This document shows, in pieces, positions 27,333 to 56,869 of a DNA stretch of 64,000 nucleotides (positions are counted from its first letter, which is position 1; every line of letters starts with the position of its first letter). The stretch spans positions 269,256-333,255 of the forward strand of contig NZ_LMSS01000006.1 of NCBI RefSeq assembly GCF_001429605.1. Direction: 5' to 3'. Source of the DNA: Phycicoccus sp. Soil802. GTDB lineage: Bacteria > Actinomycetota > Actinomycetes > Actinomycetales > Dermatophilaceae. A program made the position numbers and the translations under genes. The notes beneath the pieces are model-generated. The model was not told the origin of the DNA. It made no database searches and saw only the letters and a program-made list of their open reading frames with translations.

Positions 27333-29168
27333 CTACTTCTTGGTCACCGCGTCGTTCGACAGCGCGGCGATGAAGGCCTCCGGCGGCACCTCGACGCTGC
27401 CGATGTTCTTCATCCGCTTCTTGCCGGCCTTCTGCTTCTCGAGCAGCTTGCGCTTGCGGCTGATGTCACCGCCGTAGCACTTGGCCAGGACGTCCTTGCG
27501 GATCGCGCGGATGTTCTCGCGGGCGATGATCCGCGAGCCGATGGCGGCCTGGATCGGCACCTCGAACTGCTGGCGCGGGATGAGCTCCTTGAGCTTGCCG
27601 GCCATCATCACGCCGTAGGCATAGGCCTTGTCCTTGTGGACGATCGAGCTGAACGCGTCGACGGTCTCGCCCTGCAGCATGATGTCGACCTTGACGAGGT
27701 CCGCCACCTGGTCGCCGTCGGGCTCGTAGTCGAGCGAGGCGTAGCCCCGCGTGCGCGACTTGAGCTGGTCGAAGAAGTCGAAGACGATCTCGGCGAGCGG
27801 CAGCGTGTAGCGCATCTCGACGCGCTCCTCCGACAGGTAGTCCATGCCGCGCAGCGTGCCGCGCTTCTGCTGGCAGAGCTCCATGATCGCGCCGATGAAC
27901 TCGCTCGGCGCGAGCACCGTGGCCCGCACGACGGGCTCGGTCACCGAGCTGACCTTGCCGTAGGGGAACTCGCTCGGGTTGGTGACCGTGAGCACCTTGC
28001 CGTCGTCCATGGTGACGTCGTAGACCACGTTGGGCAGCGTGGAGATGAGGTCGAGGTCGAACTCGCGCTCGAGCCGCTCGCGGACGATCTCGAGGTGCAG
28101 CATGCCGAGGAACCCGATGCGGAAACCGAAGCCCAGCGCCGCCGAGGTCTCCGGCTCGTAGACCAGGGCCGCGTCGTTGAGCTTGAGCTTGTCGAGCGCG
28201 TCGCGCAGGTCGGGGTAGTCGGACCCGTCGATCGGGTAGAGCCCGGAGAAGACCATCGGCTTGGGGTCGCGGTAGCCGCCCAGCGCTTCCTTGGCGGGCT
28301 TGGCGGCGTTGGTGACGGTGTCGCCGACCTTGGACTGGCGCACGTCCTTCACGCCGGTGATGAGGTAGCCCACCTCGCCGACACCGAGGCCCTTGGCCGG
28401 CGTGGGCTCGGGCGAGCTGACGCCGATCTCGAGCAGCTCGTGCGTCGCGCGGGTCGACATCATCGCGATCTTCTCGCGCGGGTTGAGGTTGCCGTCGATG
28501 ACGCGGACGTAGGTGACCACCCCGCGGTACGTGTCGTAGACCGAGTCGAAGATCATCGCGCGGGCGGGCGCGTCGGCGTCGCCGGTCGGCGGAGGCAGCT
28601 GCGTGACGATCTCGTTGAGCAGCGGCTCGACGCCGACGCCGGTCTTGCCCGAGACCCGCAGGCAGTCCTCGGGCTCGCAGCCGATCAGGCCCGCCAGCTC
28701 TTCCGCGAACTTCTCCGGCTGCGCGGCGGGCAGGTCGATCTTGTTGAGCACGGGGATGATCGCGAGGTCGTTCTCCATGGCGAGGTAGAGGTTCGCCAGG
28801 GTCTGCGCCTCGATCCCCTGCGCCGCGTCGACGAGCAGCACCGCGCCCTCGCAGGCGGCCAGCGACCGCGACACCTCGTAGGTGAAGTCGACGTGGCCGG
28901 GGGTGTCGATCATGTTGAGCGCGTAGGTCGTGCCGTCCAGCTCCCACGGCATGCGGACGGCCTGGCTCTTGATCGTGATGCCGCGCTCGCGCTCGATGTC
29001 CATCTTGTCGAGGTACTGGGCGCGCATGTCACGACCGTCGACGACACCGGTGATCTGGAGCATGCGGTCGGCCAGCGTCGACTTGCCGTGGTCGATGTGG
29101 GCGATGATGCAGAAGTTCCGGATCAGGTCCGGCGGCGTTGCGTGCGGCTGCAGCGCGGTGCGGGCCAT
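27333..29168 (-). CDS. lepA: Elongation factor 4 (back-translocase)
   Basis: 611-residue translational GTPase that remobilises stalled ribosomes. G1 AHIDHGKST (23-31), G3 DTPGH, G4 NKID, then domains II-IV and the LepA-specific C-terminal domain ([21 protein letters not shown]). The ATG at 29168 is favoured; a GTG three codons upstream (29177) is possible. Neither has a strong ribosome site; GAGG lies about 20 nt upstream. It belongs to the rpsT-lepA-hemW-hrcA conserved order, here split by accessory genes. Confidence 0.97.
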
Positions 29169-32974: not shown

Positions 32975-33109
32975 CGCCGGAGCTCCCACCAGCGGTCCAC
33001 GGCTACACCTTCGTGGCGATGGTGGCGATGGTGGCGAGCCGGCCCGGCTGGCGGCAGGACTCGGGCGAACCCGCCTCGGCGTCCGCACCTCGCCACTAGC
33101 GTGGCCCTC

Positions 33110-33580
33110 ATGGGGGACCCGACGCGTTCGCAGGTCGCGCAGGACAGCTGGGTGCGGCGGATCGTCAGGTGGCTGACCGGTGCCTATCCGGGTGACTTCA
33201 CCGGCGTGCCCGAGATGGAGTACTCCCCCGTCGCCGACGGGCGGCCCGACCCCGGCGAGGTGGTCTGGACCTGGGTGCCGTTCGAGGACGACCACCGCAA
33301 GGGCAAGGACCGTCCGGTGCTGCTCATCGGCCGCGATGGACGCTGGCTGCTCGGGGTCATGCTGACCACCAAGCTGCGGGCCGGCACCGACCCTCGGCGA
33401 CGGACACCGTCCGACCGGGTCCCCGTCGGGGTCGGCGCATGGGATCGGCAGCGGCGACCCAGTGAGGTGCGGGTCGACCGCATCATCCGGGTCAAGCCCA
33501 GCCGCATCCGGCGGGAGGGCGCGGCGATCGACGCGGTGCGCTTCGCCGCCGTCGCCGAAGGCGTGCGCCGCAACGCCTGA
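33110..33580 (+). CDS. PemK/MazF-like protein, copy 1
   Basis: 156 residues. After about 20 basic residues comes a single SH3-like PemK/MazF barrel: YPGDFTGVP, then PDPGEVVWTWVPFEDDH, KGKDRPVLLIGRDGRWLL, and a C-terminal SEVRVDRIIRVKPSRIRREG. The start of the barrel (GEVVW ... KGRPVLV-type) is the MazF ribonuclease signature. No antitoxin ORF is seen on either side, and these actinobacterial proteins carry longer tails than classical MazF, so toxin activity is unproven. TAGCGT lies 7 nt before the ATG. A paralogue follows at 35716 beyond the HNH gene. Confidence 0.8.
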   Translation: MGDPTRSQVAQDSWVRRIVRWLTGAYPGDFTGVPEMEYSPVADGRPDPGEVVWTWVPFEDDHRKGKDRPVLLIGRDGRWLLGVMLTTKLRAGTDPRRRTPSDRVPVGVGAWDRQRRPSEVRVDRIIRVKPSRIRREGAAIDAVRFAAVAEGVRRNA

Positions 33581-33641
33581 GGTCACCGGCTCCCTGCCCA
33601 CGCGCCTGGCGCTGTCGGACCCCGGACCTAGACTCGAACAC

Positions 33642-35573
33642 ATGTTCGATGCAGCCGTCGTCGCCGCGCCGCTCCGCGAGGAGCTGGCTCGACTGCGGGC
33701 GGACGGCCGGCGCCGATCGGTGCCGGAGCTGGTCGCCCTTGCGGAGCAGTGCCAGTCGTTCACGAACCAGGTTGCTGCGCTGCAGGTGCTCGCCATGGCC
33801 CACCTGGCTGCGATCGAGGACGTCGAGCTCGAGGACGGCACGGTGGTCGAGCAGCACCGCGGGCTGGGGCACCAGCGACTGGACGCGCCCGCGCTGGTCA
33901 GCGACCAGCTCGGCCTCAGCGACGCGGCCGCCACGAGTCGGATGACCGTCGCAGTGGAGGTCGTCACCCGAGCGCCCTTCCTTCTCGAGGCAATGGCCTC
34001 CGGTCGGCTGGATGCCTACCGCGCCGGGATCGTCTGCGAGGAGCTGCGTGAGGCCAGCCCGGAGGTGTGCCGAGAGGTCGGCGCGAGGCTCGAGGGCTCG
34101 CTGGGCACGGAGCCGCCCGCGATGCTGCGTCGCCGCGTGCGACGCGTGCTCGGTGCCGTCGACGCCGACCTGGTGCGGGCCAAGGCCGCGCGGGCACGGG
34201 CCGCACGGAGCCTGCGTCGGTGGCCCGGCGACGAACCCGGGGTCGACACGTGGATGGGGAGCTTCCCGGTCGAGCAGGCCCGCAGCGGGTGGGCGGTCAT
34301 CGACGGCTTGGCACGACAGTACGTCCGCGATGGCCGCGCGAGCGGCGTCGACGAGGCGCGGGCCGACGCGTTGATGGACCTGATCCACTCCCGGGCGACG
34401 GGCACGTTCGTGGTCCAGCTCGCCGTGCCCGCTGACCGACTCGCCTCGGAGGCACCGAGCACGCCAGCTGACAGTGGCTTCGCCGATGCGGCTGAGCGGG
34501 CGTCAGGCGCGGTGGCGAGGCTGGCTGGACGCGCGTCGGGTTCGGTCGCGGAGCCGGCTGGGCTTGCGTCCAGTTCGCTCGCGTGGCCGGCCGAGGACGA
34601 TGCCCTGGTGACGGTGGCGGGCCTCGGGATGCCGGGCAACACCCACGTCCGTCGTGAGTGGCTGGAGCACGTCGTCGCGACCGAGCCAGCCGATCGCCCT
34701 GACTCGACCAGCTCCAGTGACCCGACTGACGGCAGTGGCGCGACCCAGCGCACCCGCCGAGGCGTGGTGGCCTGCCAGGCTGACACCGGTGCGCTGCTCG
34801 CCGTGGACCGCGCCACCGCTTGCGGGCGGCCCGGTACGACCGAGTCAGCGGCCTACCGACCACCTCCGACGCTGGTCGAGCTGGTCAAGGCACGCGATGG
34901 CAGGTGCCGATTCCCGGGATGCACGGTCAGTGCGGTGTTCTGCGACCTCGACCACGTGCGGCCGTGGCCATCGGGACCGACAGAGGCGGGCAATCTCATC
35001 TGCCTGTGCCGCCGGCACCACCGGATCAAGCAGACCGTCCGATGGCGGGTGCGCATCGAGCCCGACGCCACCGTCACCTGGACCGATCCCGCCGGGCGGA
35101 CGCGCGCCACCCTGCCCATCGACTTCCTCCAGCTCGAACGCGATGCGCCGCACGACGCCGAGCCCATGCGCGACGGGCACGGGCGCGACAAGCACGCGCA
35201 CGACGGGCACGGGCACGGGCACGACAAGCACGCGCACGACAAGCATGCGCGCGACGAGCACGCGCACGACAAGGACAGGCTGGGAGCGCCAGTCCATGGG
35301 TCGCGCTCGCCCGAGCTGAGCGCAGCGGAGACGCGGCGCGGCGGGTCACCGCCGGCCGACTCACCTCCGGTCGACGAGGTCGGCGCCCACTGGTCGGCGT
35401 GGGAGGACGAGCTCGCGCACCACCTGGCCGGAGCCGAACGTGACCGACGCCGAACGGGTCGGCCCAGGTTTCGGGTGAGCCGGCATCTCCTGCATCGTTG
35501 CCGGGAGCACCACCGGAGGGGCGACCGGAGCAGCTCAGCGAGAGCGGGTCCCGAGGAGCCACCTCCGTTCTGA
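33642..35573 (+). CDS. DUF222-HNH endonuclease
   Basis: 643 residues. The DUF222 helical domain occupies about 20-400, with a low-complexity Ala/Ser/Gly insertion near 270-310. The HNH core at about 420-470 is RDGRCRFPGCTVSAVFCDLDHVRPW ... NLICLCRRHHR, with zinc-type CxxxxC and CxxxHH pairs. A His/Asp-rich repeat follows (about 510-545). TAGACT is 7 nt before the ATG (leaderless). Unlike the edge copy, it is intact. Its neighbours are two PemK-like paralogues, one on each side. The role (nuclease, mobile element or defence) is unknown. Confidence 0.87.
   Translation: MFDAAVVAAPLREELARLRADGRRRSVPELVALAEQCQSFTNQVAALQVLAMAHLAAIEDVELEDGTVVEQHRGLGHQRLDAPALVSDQLGLSDAAATSRMTVAVEVVTRAPFLLEAMASGRLDAYRAGIVCEELREASPEVCREVGARLEGSLGTEPPAMLRRRVRRVLGAVDADLVRAKAARARAARSLRRWPGDEPGVDTWMGSFPVEQARSGWAVIDGLARQYVRDGRASGVDEARADALMDLIHSRATGTFVVQLAVPADRLASEAPSTPADSGFADAAERASGAVARLAGRASGSVAEPAGLASSSLAWPAEDDALVTVAGLGMPGNTHVRREWLEHVVATEPADRPDSTSSSDPTDGSGATQRTRRGVVACQADTGALLAVDRATACGRPGTTESAAYRPPPTLVELVKARDGRCRFPGCTVSAVFCDLDHVRPWPSGPTEAGNLICLCRRHHRIKQTVRWRVRIEPDATVTWTDPAGRTRATLPIDFLQLERDAPHDAEPMRDGHGRDKHAHDGHGHGHDKHAHDKHARDEHAHDKDRLGAPVHGSRSPELSAAETRRGGSPPADSPPVDEVGAHWSAWEDELAHHLAGAERDRRRTGRPRFRVSRHLLHRCREHHRRGDRSSSARAGPEEPPPF
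35185..35278 (+). repeat. His-Asp-Lys repeat region in the HNH gene
   Basis: Imperfect 6- to 18-bp repeats of GACAAGCACGCGCAC type encode HDGHGH, DKHAHD and DKHARD units. The result is a histidine-rich tail segment that could bind zinc or nickel. Confidence 0.75.
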
Positions 35574-35715
35574 CGCCGTCGCCTCAGTCGTGAGGGAGAC
35601 GATTCCCATCAGGCCACAACAGCCGGACCACGCCCATCACGACGACGCCCACCACGACGACGCCCACCAACACGACTCCCGTCCACAGCCATGGGTCCCG
35701 GCTAGCGTGGTGGGC

Positions 35716-36312
35716 ATGGCTTCCCTGCGTTCGCGACTGACCCAGCTCTGGCGACGAGGGGCCACGACGGCTCCGGGTCCGGCTGCGCCACCGCGGACCA
35801 CCACGCCGCAGAGCGGCGCACTCGAGCAGGTTCGGACGACGCAGCAGGTTCGGTCGACGCAGCAGGTTCGGTCGACGCAGCAGGTTCGGTCGACGCAGCA
35901 GGTTCGGTCGACGTACCCGGGCGACTTCACGGGGACCCCTGACCTGACCTACGCCCCCCAGCCTGACGGGCAGCCCGATCCCGGCGAGATCGTGTGGACC
36001 TGGGTGCCGTACGAGGAGGACCACCGCCAGGGCAAGGACCGACCGGTCCTCCTCGTGGGACGTGACGGTCGGTGGTTGCTGGCCCTGATGCTGACCAGCA
36101 AGGACCACGACCGCGACCACGCGCAGGAGGCCCGGCACGGTCGGCACTGGCAGGACATCGGGTCCGGCGCGTGGGACGGGAAGGGCCGCCCCAGCGAGGT
36201 GCGGGTGGACCGGATCCTGCGGGTGGACCCGGCAGCGGTACGGCGCGAGGGAGCGGTGCTCGACCGCGAGCGGTTCGACGAGGTGGCTGCGGCGGTCCGT
36301 GCGGCGACCTGA
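35716..36312 (+). CDS. PemK/MazF-like protein, copy 2, with QQVRST repeats
   Basis: 198 residues. The C-terminal 130 residues match copy 1 closely (YPGDFTGTP, PDPGEIVWTWVPYEEDH, GKDRPVLLVGRDGRWLL, SEVRVDRILRVDPAAVRREG). The N-terminal 65 residues differ and include four to five QQVRST units encoded by an 18-bp tandem repeat. It shares TAGCGT 7 nt before the ATG with copy 1. The 142-bp gap before it holds short ACGACGCCCACC duplications. No antitoxin is visible. It ends at the hairpin shared with rpsT. Confidence 0.8.
   Translation: MASLRSRLTQLWRRGATTAPGPAAPPRTTTPQSGALEQVRTTQQVRSTQQVRSTQQVRSTQQVRSTYPGDFTGTPDLTYAPQPDGQPDPGEIVWTWVPYEEDHRQGKDRPVLLVGRDGRWLLALMLTSKDHDRDHAQEARHGRHWQDIGSGAWDGKGRPSEVRVDRILRVDPAAVRREGAVLDRERFDEVAAAVRAAT
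35830..35911 (+). repeat. 18-bp tandem repeat inside PemK-like copy 2
   Basis: Four near-exact units of GCAGCAGGTTCGGTCGAC (from 35841) follow one divergent unit. The array is in frame and could change length without breaking the gene. Confidence 0.9.
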
Positions 36313-36352: not shown

Positions 36353-36385
36353 AAGGGCCGGTCACCCAGTGGGTGACCGGCCCTT
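36353..36385. terminator. Bidirectional terminator between PemK-like copy 2 and rpsT
   Basis: AAGGGCCGGTCACCC and GGGTGACCGGCCCTT form a perfect 15-bp stem with a 3-nt apex. It lies between converging genes, 22 nt from the rpsT stop codon. Confidence 0.9.
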
Positions 36386-36407: not shown

Positions 36408-36668
36408 TCAGAGCGAGGCGGCCTTCTTCGCCATGGCCGACTTCTTGTTGGCGGCCTGGTTGGCGTGGATGACGCCCTTGCCAGCAGCCTTGTCGAGCTT
36501 CTTGCTGGCGGTCGCGAGGGCATCCTTCGCCGCCGCTGCGTCGCCGGCGTCGACGGCCTTCTGGAACTTGCGGATCCAGGTCTTGAGCTCGCTCTTGACG
36601 GCCTTGTTGCGCTCGGTCGCCGTGCGGTTCGTCTTGATCCGCTTGAGCTGGGACTTGATGTTTGCCAC
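36408..36668 (-). CDS. rpsT: 30S ribosomal protein S20
   Basis: 86-residue basic helical protein of the small subunit (starts [16 protein letters not shown], ends [14 protein letters not shown]). The start is GTG at 36668 with only a weak ribosome site. S20 genes often use non-ATG starts linked to feedback regulation, so the GTG may matter. The leader is about 140 nt. Confidence 0.97.
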
Positions 36669-56833: not shown

Positions 56834-56869
56834 TCCACCTGGGGATGAACCTACCGAACACCTGTTCGA
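56834..56869 (-). promoter_or_regulatory. recA promoter with LexA (SOS) box
   Basis: CGAACACCTGTTCG (56855-56868) is a near-perfect actinobacterial/Gram-positive SOS box (CGAAC-N4-GTTCG). On the minus strand TAGGTT follows at once, a -10 that LexA would occlude. Confidence 0.92.

Follow-up and report, generated by a model that had tools for sequence, protein, structure and literature searches.

Why should two genes of the PemK/MazF toxin family stand on either side of a nuclease-like gene? The question is raised by a 64 kb stretch of contig NZ_LMSS01000006.1 from Phycicoccus sp. Soil802 (the window; its source genome, 4.29 Mb, is labelled G000, and its relatives carry labels of the same form), in which a DUF222-HNH gene lies between two PemK-like genes, here called PemK1 and PemK2. 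An earlier note on this DNA had offered two readings: a module for defence or mobility that is tied to the nuclease, or insertion of the HNH gene through duplication of the PemK locus. We compared gene order across relatives, phylogeny, conservation, and the positions of promoter motifs and SOS boxes. In our judgement the array is, with high probability, a set of three separately transcribed, leaderless and autonomous genes that occupy a variable slot upstream of rpsT side by side, and not one joint machine.

A variable slot beside rpsT

The open reading frames (ORFs) of PemK1, DUF222-HNH and PemK2 were confirmed, all on the plus strand. The gene order is MFS (minus), M48 peptidase, PemK1, DUF222-HNH, PemK2 (all plus), rpsT and holA (both minus), in which the MFS, S20 and DNA polymerase III delta neighbours were named by Pfam. 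Comparison of the slot in all 11 genus genomes showed that its content varies. G000 has PemK1-HNH-PemK2, and in G003 the array is the same but preceded by an APH-type phosphotransferase gene; G010 has PemK1-APH-PemK2-GH25, while APH-PemK2-GH25 is found in G004, G005 and G006, PemK2-GH25 in G007 and G001, and PemK2 alone in G008 and G009. The slot of G002 reads HNH-PemK2, with PemK1 absent and the HNH gene broken by an in-frame stop and a frameshift. The APH and GH25 labels come from Pfam for three proteins and from similarity for the others. An M48 gene was seen upstream in nine of the 11 genomes, all but G001 and G008.

Outside the genus, G149 and G155 carry two adjacent PemK genes, the PemK1-type copy lying downstream of PemK2 in G149 and upstream in G155. 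Neighbouring PemK pairs were found in 5 of 186 family genomes, with an HNH gene between them in two, an APH-type phosphotransferase gene in one and nothing in two; the second matches of G024 and G179 and a second, weaker match of G004 were excluded from this count. The PemK matches of G179 lie on three separate contigs. Sites with a single PemK gene, which the earlier note had proposed to look for, turned out to be the rule.

Each of the three genes also has a promoter motif of its own. The earlier note had remarked on a common -10 box, TAGCGT, 7 nt before the ATG of both PemK genes, and this was confirmed: TAGCGT-7nt-ATG occurs exactly twice in the window, before PemK1 and PemK2, and with one mismatch at 4 sites against 3.1 expected. 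The wider pattern TANNNT-7nt-RTG is found at 8 places in the window, where 3.6 are expected and 3 of 100 shuffles attain that number; three of the eight are at this locus. TANNNT matches the leaderless -10 signal of Actinobacteria given in the pertinent passages of PMC3160421 and PMC3898074. In 91 of 106 PemK rows it precedes an in-frame start by 4-10 nt, compared with 7/106 for a control placed at 24-30 nt, and the spacing is 6-8 nt in 90 of 92 hits; PemK1 of G010 has no such motif. To judge from these counts, the TAGCGT shared by the two PemK genes is the usual leaderless-type promoter motif predicted for the PemK family, and therefore no sign of a recent duplication. A -10 of this kind stands before the HNH gene too (TAGACT, at the spacing of both PemKs; TAGAAT at equal spacing in the G002 copy), so the motif is common to all three genes.

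PemK2 as a resident gene and PemK1 as its paralogue

PemK1 and PemK2 share 57% identity over 138 aa (E 2e-54), and both pass the Pfam PemK_toxin cut-off of 23.1 bits (36.8 and 48.1 bits, respectively), in agreement with the earlier note. The MazF link of PemK2 was revealed by fold comparison only: its model is a MazF barrel at about residues 84-198, with a best Z of 11.5 to 4mzm_A (root-mean-square deviation 2.7 over 103 residues). When PemK1, PemK2, the HNH protein and a PemK2 profile were searched by sequence against solved structures, no believable match emerged, and a comparison of profiles with the canonical MazF-type protein of this genome was not informative either. Arg109 is present in all 101 PemK2-type rows and in 5/5 PemK1 copies, and position 127 is Thr in 92/101 and Ser in 9/101 PemK2-type rows and Thr in all five PemK1 copies. 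The catalytic residues of MazF are Arg25 and Thr48, according to the part of PMC7354611 that deals with them. In a sequence alignment the Arg and Thr of PemK1 and PemK2 fall at these positions, and a catalytic role is predicted for them.

PemK2 is found widely. It has a match at E<=0.001 in 11/11 genus, 158/186 family and 90/119 sampled order genomes (a few of the order matches being very weak). A PemK1 profile, which also finds PemK2, gave matches at E<=1e-10 in 25/60 class genomes, and two matches only in G000 and G010. Linkage to rpsT was scored on the best 80 of 228 or more candidate loci encoding a PemK relative; rpsT lies <=4 kb from PemK in 51 of these 80 named loci, including 20/20 of Intrasporangiaceae, 9/9 of Demequinaceae, 8/8 of Cellulomonadaceae and 6/6 of Micrococcaceae, and in none of those of Geodermatophilaceae (0/13), Nocardioidaceae (0/7), Propionibacteriaceae (0/5), Dermatophilaceae (0/1) and Dermacoccaceae (0/1). 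A literature search for PemK together with rpsT gave nothing on such a pairing among the part of the results that was listed.

Are the two PemKs, then, ordinary type II toxins whose antitoxins are hidden or encoded elsewhere? The MazF fold and the Arg/Thr positions are kept, and PMC3898074, in the pertinent section, counts 32 as leaderless among the 37 M. tuberculosis toxin-antitoxin gene pairs that have a primary start. We nevertheless consider this reading unlikely. The earlier note saw no antitoxin, and none came to light here: the 9 other ORFs that overlap or adjoin the three genes in the window are all below the Pfam cut-offs. The compact G009 locus has just 22 nt from the stop of M48 to the start of PemK2, which leaves no room for an adjacent antitoxin gene. 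Single-copy conservation beside rpsT also differs from the behaviour of mobile toxin-antitoxin pairs. Finally, a third PemK/MazF-type gene of the same genome (L037:3422-4139) has an overlapping upstream RHH-like ORF (sub-threshold, 14.7 against 20.5 bits), with which it likely forms a canonical toxin-antitoxin pair, whereas PemK1 and PemK2 have no such ORF.

Taken together, PemK2 is an old, conserved, usually single-copy MazF-fold gene next to rpsT for which no antitoxin gene was found, and its product is most likely a self-limited endoribonuclease or an RNA-binding protein. It resembles the MazF/PemK (Kid) mRNA interferases in its PemK_toxin family membership, its fold and its aligned Arg/Thr. 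It differs from them in having no adjacent antitoxin gene found, a region ahead of the barrel that holds a conserved YPGDF...DPGE stretch and a variable extension, a family-wide SKDHDRD loop, and a usually single copy that is linked to rpsT in most of the Micrococcales families sampled. The N-terminal extension holds nearly perfect 18-nt repeats (4.9 copies), and its length varies among relatives. TASmania lists Rv2405 of M. tuberculosis, a 189-aa PemK_toxin protein, as a single-gene 'T' unit, as the entry in PMC6504116 has it. Solitary like PemK2, Rv2405 may be its orthologue. We also take Rv2405 to lie near rpsT.

PemK1 has gone a different way. Asp130 and His131, which are present in 100/101 and 99/101 PemK2-type rows, are absent in 5/5 and 4/5 PemK1 copies, respectively, and in the PemK1 model the barrel is retained but the short helix 132-140 of the PemK2 model is gone. 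Since this beta3-beta4 loop has been replaced, PemK1 probably differs from PemK2 in target or activity. The ratio of non-synonymous to synonymous substitution rates (dN/dS) between G000 and G003 is 0.085 for PemK2, 0.136 for PemK1, 0.294 for HNH and 0.090 for M48; with dS near saturation these are rough values, which point to purifying selection on both PemKs and a weaker one on HNH.

These features would suit a PemK1 that serves as a loop-altered partner or inhibitor of PemK2, for instance in mixed dimers at a shared active site: it keeps its barrel under purifying selection and yet has lost the Asp and His, and each PemK1 lies within 3 kb of PemK2. Most PemK2 genomes, however, show no PemK1, and we find such a role quite improbable. 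Among the part of the results that was listed, a literature search for inactive MazF paralogues returned nothing useful.

The DUF222-HNH gene, its SOS box and its history

The middle gene codes for a DUF222-HNH protein, as assigned by its N-terminal domain and its motif, and a nuclease function is predicted from these. A scan of the N-terminal part by itself puts DUF222 over the cut-off (30.6 against 24.4 bits), although the full-length protein had no Pfam match and the Pfam HNH model stays sub-threshold (14.4 against 21.4 bits). The CRFPGC, D[LV]DH and HH motifs are intact in 19/19 spanning rows of 20 aligned, the window gene included. One literature lead on DUF222 proved to concern DUF2220, which is unrelated.

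DUF222-HNH homologues at E<=1e-30 occur in 66/186 family genomes, many of them with several matches, and G000 has further copies. No PemK gene was found at 17/17 homologue loci outside G000, G002 and G003 (in the fetched stretch, with up to 1.5 kb of flank), nor at 7/7 loci of the other HNH matches in G000. Apart from the two PemKs, the repeats seen when the borders of the gene were inspected for flanking copies or a target-site duplication are short and two-copy only, such as 19 nt at 84% shared by the end of PemK1 and the DNA just after HNH, and are likely due to chance. The gene is best described as belonging to the dispersed DUF222-HNH (13E12-type) family; this copy probably goes back to a single insertion in the ancestor of a small clade. 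In the alignment, the broken G002 copy has a gap at the His/Asp-rich 15-nt repeat stretch.

The HNH protein found no relative in a scan of viral contigs. Plasmids gave 3 weak HNH and 3 PemK records and phages 1 HNH and 2 PemK records, the phage records being without exception from unannotated faecal scaffolds; these 'Bacteriophage sp.' scaffolds (MT836331.1, MT835738.1 and MT836590.1) encode PemK2-like or DUF222-HNH-like proteins and could be host DNA.

What is new here is that the HNH gene has an exact LexA/SOS box, which overlaps its -10 and its start codon. The M. tuberculosis SOS box is TCGAAC(N)4GTTCGA and 13E12-family HNH genes belong to the LexA regulon, as stated in the relevant parts of PMC4181829, so that LexA control of the M. 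tuberculosis 13E12 genes is known (see also the corresponding part of PMC5005354). TCGAACACATGTTCGA at 33634-33649 matches this box exactly and is the only exact one in the window, where SOS-like sites with <=2 mismatches number 14 against 2.5 expected; neither PemK start has a box within two mismatches. Two other sites in the window have one mismatch, 28057-28072 near the start of an opposite-strand 256-aa ORF, and 56854-56869 with no clear gene start nearby.

Genome-wide there are nine exact boxes, and none (0) of the reversed pattern. Seven of the nine are at the 5' ends of DUF222/HNH-type genes, the window gene included; three of these genes were assigned to DUF222 by Pfam (L186, L187 and L190) and three were typed by their match to the window HNH protein (L188, L189 and L192, with E of 7.8e-22, 6.9e-27 and 2.6e-11). 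The L184 box is followed after ~1.1 kb by an ORF that has a PHP domain and appears to be DnaE2-like, and the L185 box (L185:1501-1992) precedes a 145-aa ORF with no Pfam match. The homologue loci number 26 with the window gene. As two of them were cut and three lacked a match to the N-terminus, 21 could be tested, over -300 to +60 relative to the projected start. A box is exact in 10/21 and within one mismatch in 15/21, against 0/21 for the reversed control.

These positions suggest that the HNH gene is under LexA/SOS control. LexA would sit on the -10 and the start codon and keep the gene off; DNA damage would remove LexA, a leaderless HNH mRNA would be made, and the nuclease may then act on DNA. 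The gene shares DUF222 plus HNH, many dispersed copies and an SOS box at the start with the REP13E12 family, which is listed as repetitive in the relevant part of PMC10589994. It differs in that the window copy is chromosomal, belongs to Dermatophilaceae, lies between two PemK genes and has its box over a leaderless-type start codon.

Could the three genes nonetheless act jointly as a nuclease-linked defence or mobile module? Pairings of RNase-like with DNase-like proteins are seen in defence loci, and G000 and G003 have the identical PemK1-HNH-PemK2 order. Such a module is very improbable, however, as its parts are found apart in relatives, 0/3 of the proteins match a PADLOC model at E<=0.001, each gene has its own -10 with the SOS box only at HNH, and PemK2 is widely conserved alone.

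The history of the paralogues was followed in a PemK tree of 50 rows; an earlier tree had 106. Seven named loci (L038-L043 and L046) and nine search loci (L122, L124-L126, L128, L130 and L132-L134) were dropped from the trees because they repeat genomes already included, and L118-L120 were also unused. The 50-row tree unites the PemK1 of G000, G003 and G010 in a clade with support of 98/93, all five PemK1 copies lie on one side of a branch with support of 81/92, which is not decisive, and nine of the 11 genus PemK2 rows group weakly (82/74). The five-copy PemK1 group has a Shimodaira-Hasegawa-like approximate likelihood ratio (SH-aLRT) support of 94 in the 106-row tree. Unrelated phylogenies of the two copies, which the earlier note would have counted against its reading, were not seen: the copies look like the products of an old duplication, and PemK1 is an old, diverged paralogue kept by few lineages. 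In a genus tree of four neighbouring proteins, G000, G002, G003 and G004 stand together (100/99), and one gain of the HNH gene plus one loss in G004 fits this tree but is not proved by it.

That a duplication of the PemK locus brought the HNH gene along, or was caused by it, with the PemKs as its flanking repeats, is hardly credible and largely refuted: PemK1 and PemK2 are indeed direct repeats on either side of it (77% over 189 nt), but PemK1 of G010, where there is no HNH gene, groups with those of G000 and G003, which places the origin of the paralogues before these species split, and there are both pairs without HNH (G010, G149, G155) and an HNH without a pair (G002). No PemK-HNH-PemK unit carried by a duplication and inherited together appears in presence and absence, in synteny or in the tree. 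The earlier note had held that both PemKs with an unrelated gene between them would speak against its reading, and G010, with its phosphotransferase gene, is such a case; G149 and G155 have nothing there. Its picture of HNH as a passenger in a duplication is supported in part: the gene resembles an insert and belongs to a dispersed family, but its carriage by the PemK duplication is not supported.

Weight of the evidence and features of the locus

Several points weigh against three separate genes with the history given above. The PemK1-HNH-PemK2 order is the same in two species, and the arrangement itself may be advantageous. A terminator scan found none between the genes, so read-through from HNH into PemK2 is possible. 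HNH-less G004 lies inside the clade of HNH carriers, which requires a loss or a second gain, and the PemK2 rows of G005 and G010 fall apart from the other nine of the genus. PemK1 precedes the phosphotransferase gene in G010 but follows it in G003, and it lies upstream of PemK2 in G155 but downstream in G149; because its place varies and the five-copy group has only the 81/92 support, a single origin of PemK1 is not established. On the side of the SOS box, 6/21 homologue loci have none within one mismatch, and three of the seven box-bearing genes (L188, L189 and L192) have no DUF222 match over the Pfam cut-off. The roughness of the dN/dS values, due to near-saturated dS, belongs here as well.

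The features are listed in Table 1. The inverted repeat between PemK2 and rpsT, whose two arms are 1 nt apart, is perhaps a two-way terminator for these convergent genes, though the terminator scan found none there.

Table 1. Positions of genes, motifs and repeats at the PemK1-HNH-PemK2 locus, in window coordinates
Feature	Position	Strand	Remarks
-10 box TAGCGT of PemK1	33097..33102	+	7 nt before ATG, leaderless type
PemK1, MazF-fold paralogue, 156 aa	33110..33580	+	Pfam PemK_toxin 36.8 bits; AlphaFold mean pLDDT 88.6; groups with the PemK1 of four relatives
PemK1 beta3-beta4 loop	33365..33418	+	without the Asp/His conserved in PemK2 and without the short helix of the PemK2 model
-10 box TAGACT of HNH gene	33629..33634	+	7 nt before ATG
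Exact LexA/SOS box TCGAAC-ACAT-GTTCGA	33634..33649	+	overlaps -10 and start codon of HNH gene
DUF222-HNH nuclease-like gene (13E12-type), 643 aa	33642..35573	+	
DUF222 domain match, residues 82-248	33885..34385	+	
Cys-rich HNH motif CRFPGC...DLDH...NL...RRHH	34902..35036	+	
Degenerate 15-nt tandem repeats coding for His/Asp-rich stretch of HNH protein	35171..35273	+	
-10 box TAGCGT of PemK2	35703..35708	+	7 nt before ATG
PemK2, conserved MazF-fold protein, 198 aa, barrel at about residues 84-198	35716..36312	+	
About five 18-nt tandem repeats in variable N-terminal extension of PemK2	35825..35913	+	
PemK2 loop TSKDHDRD...W, residues 127-145	36094..36150	+	family-conserved, replaced in PemK1
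Perfect 16-bp inverted repeat, PemK2/rpsT convergent gap	36353..36385		repeat search
rpsT (ribosomal protein S20), neighbour of PemK2	36408..36668	-	Pfam S20, 98.6 bits

These results remove a tempting toxin-nuclease module. In its place there is a MazF-fold gene that is widely conserved among the sampled Actinomycetes, has a leaderless-type promoter that is itself conserved, and has no antitoxin found, which is hard to reconcile with a toxin role. It is conceivable, if somewhat short of probable, that PemK2 is the founder of an actinobacterial family, widespread and free of antitoxins, whose single-copy MazF-fold members have a physiological role in RNA processing, perhaps tied to the ribosome or to S20 expression, and that PemK1 is a loop-swapped paralogue with a new target or one that tunes PemK2. 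For DUF222-HNH genes, a poorly understood nuclease type, the SOS control described in M. tuberculosis seems to extend to Dermatophilaceae.

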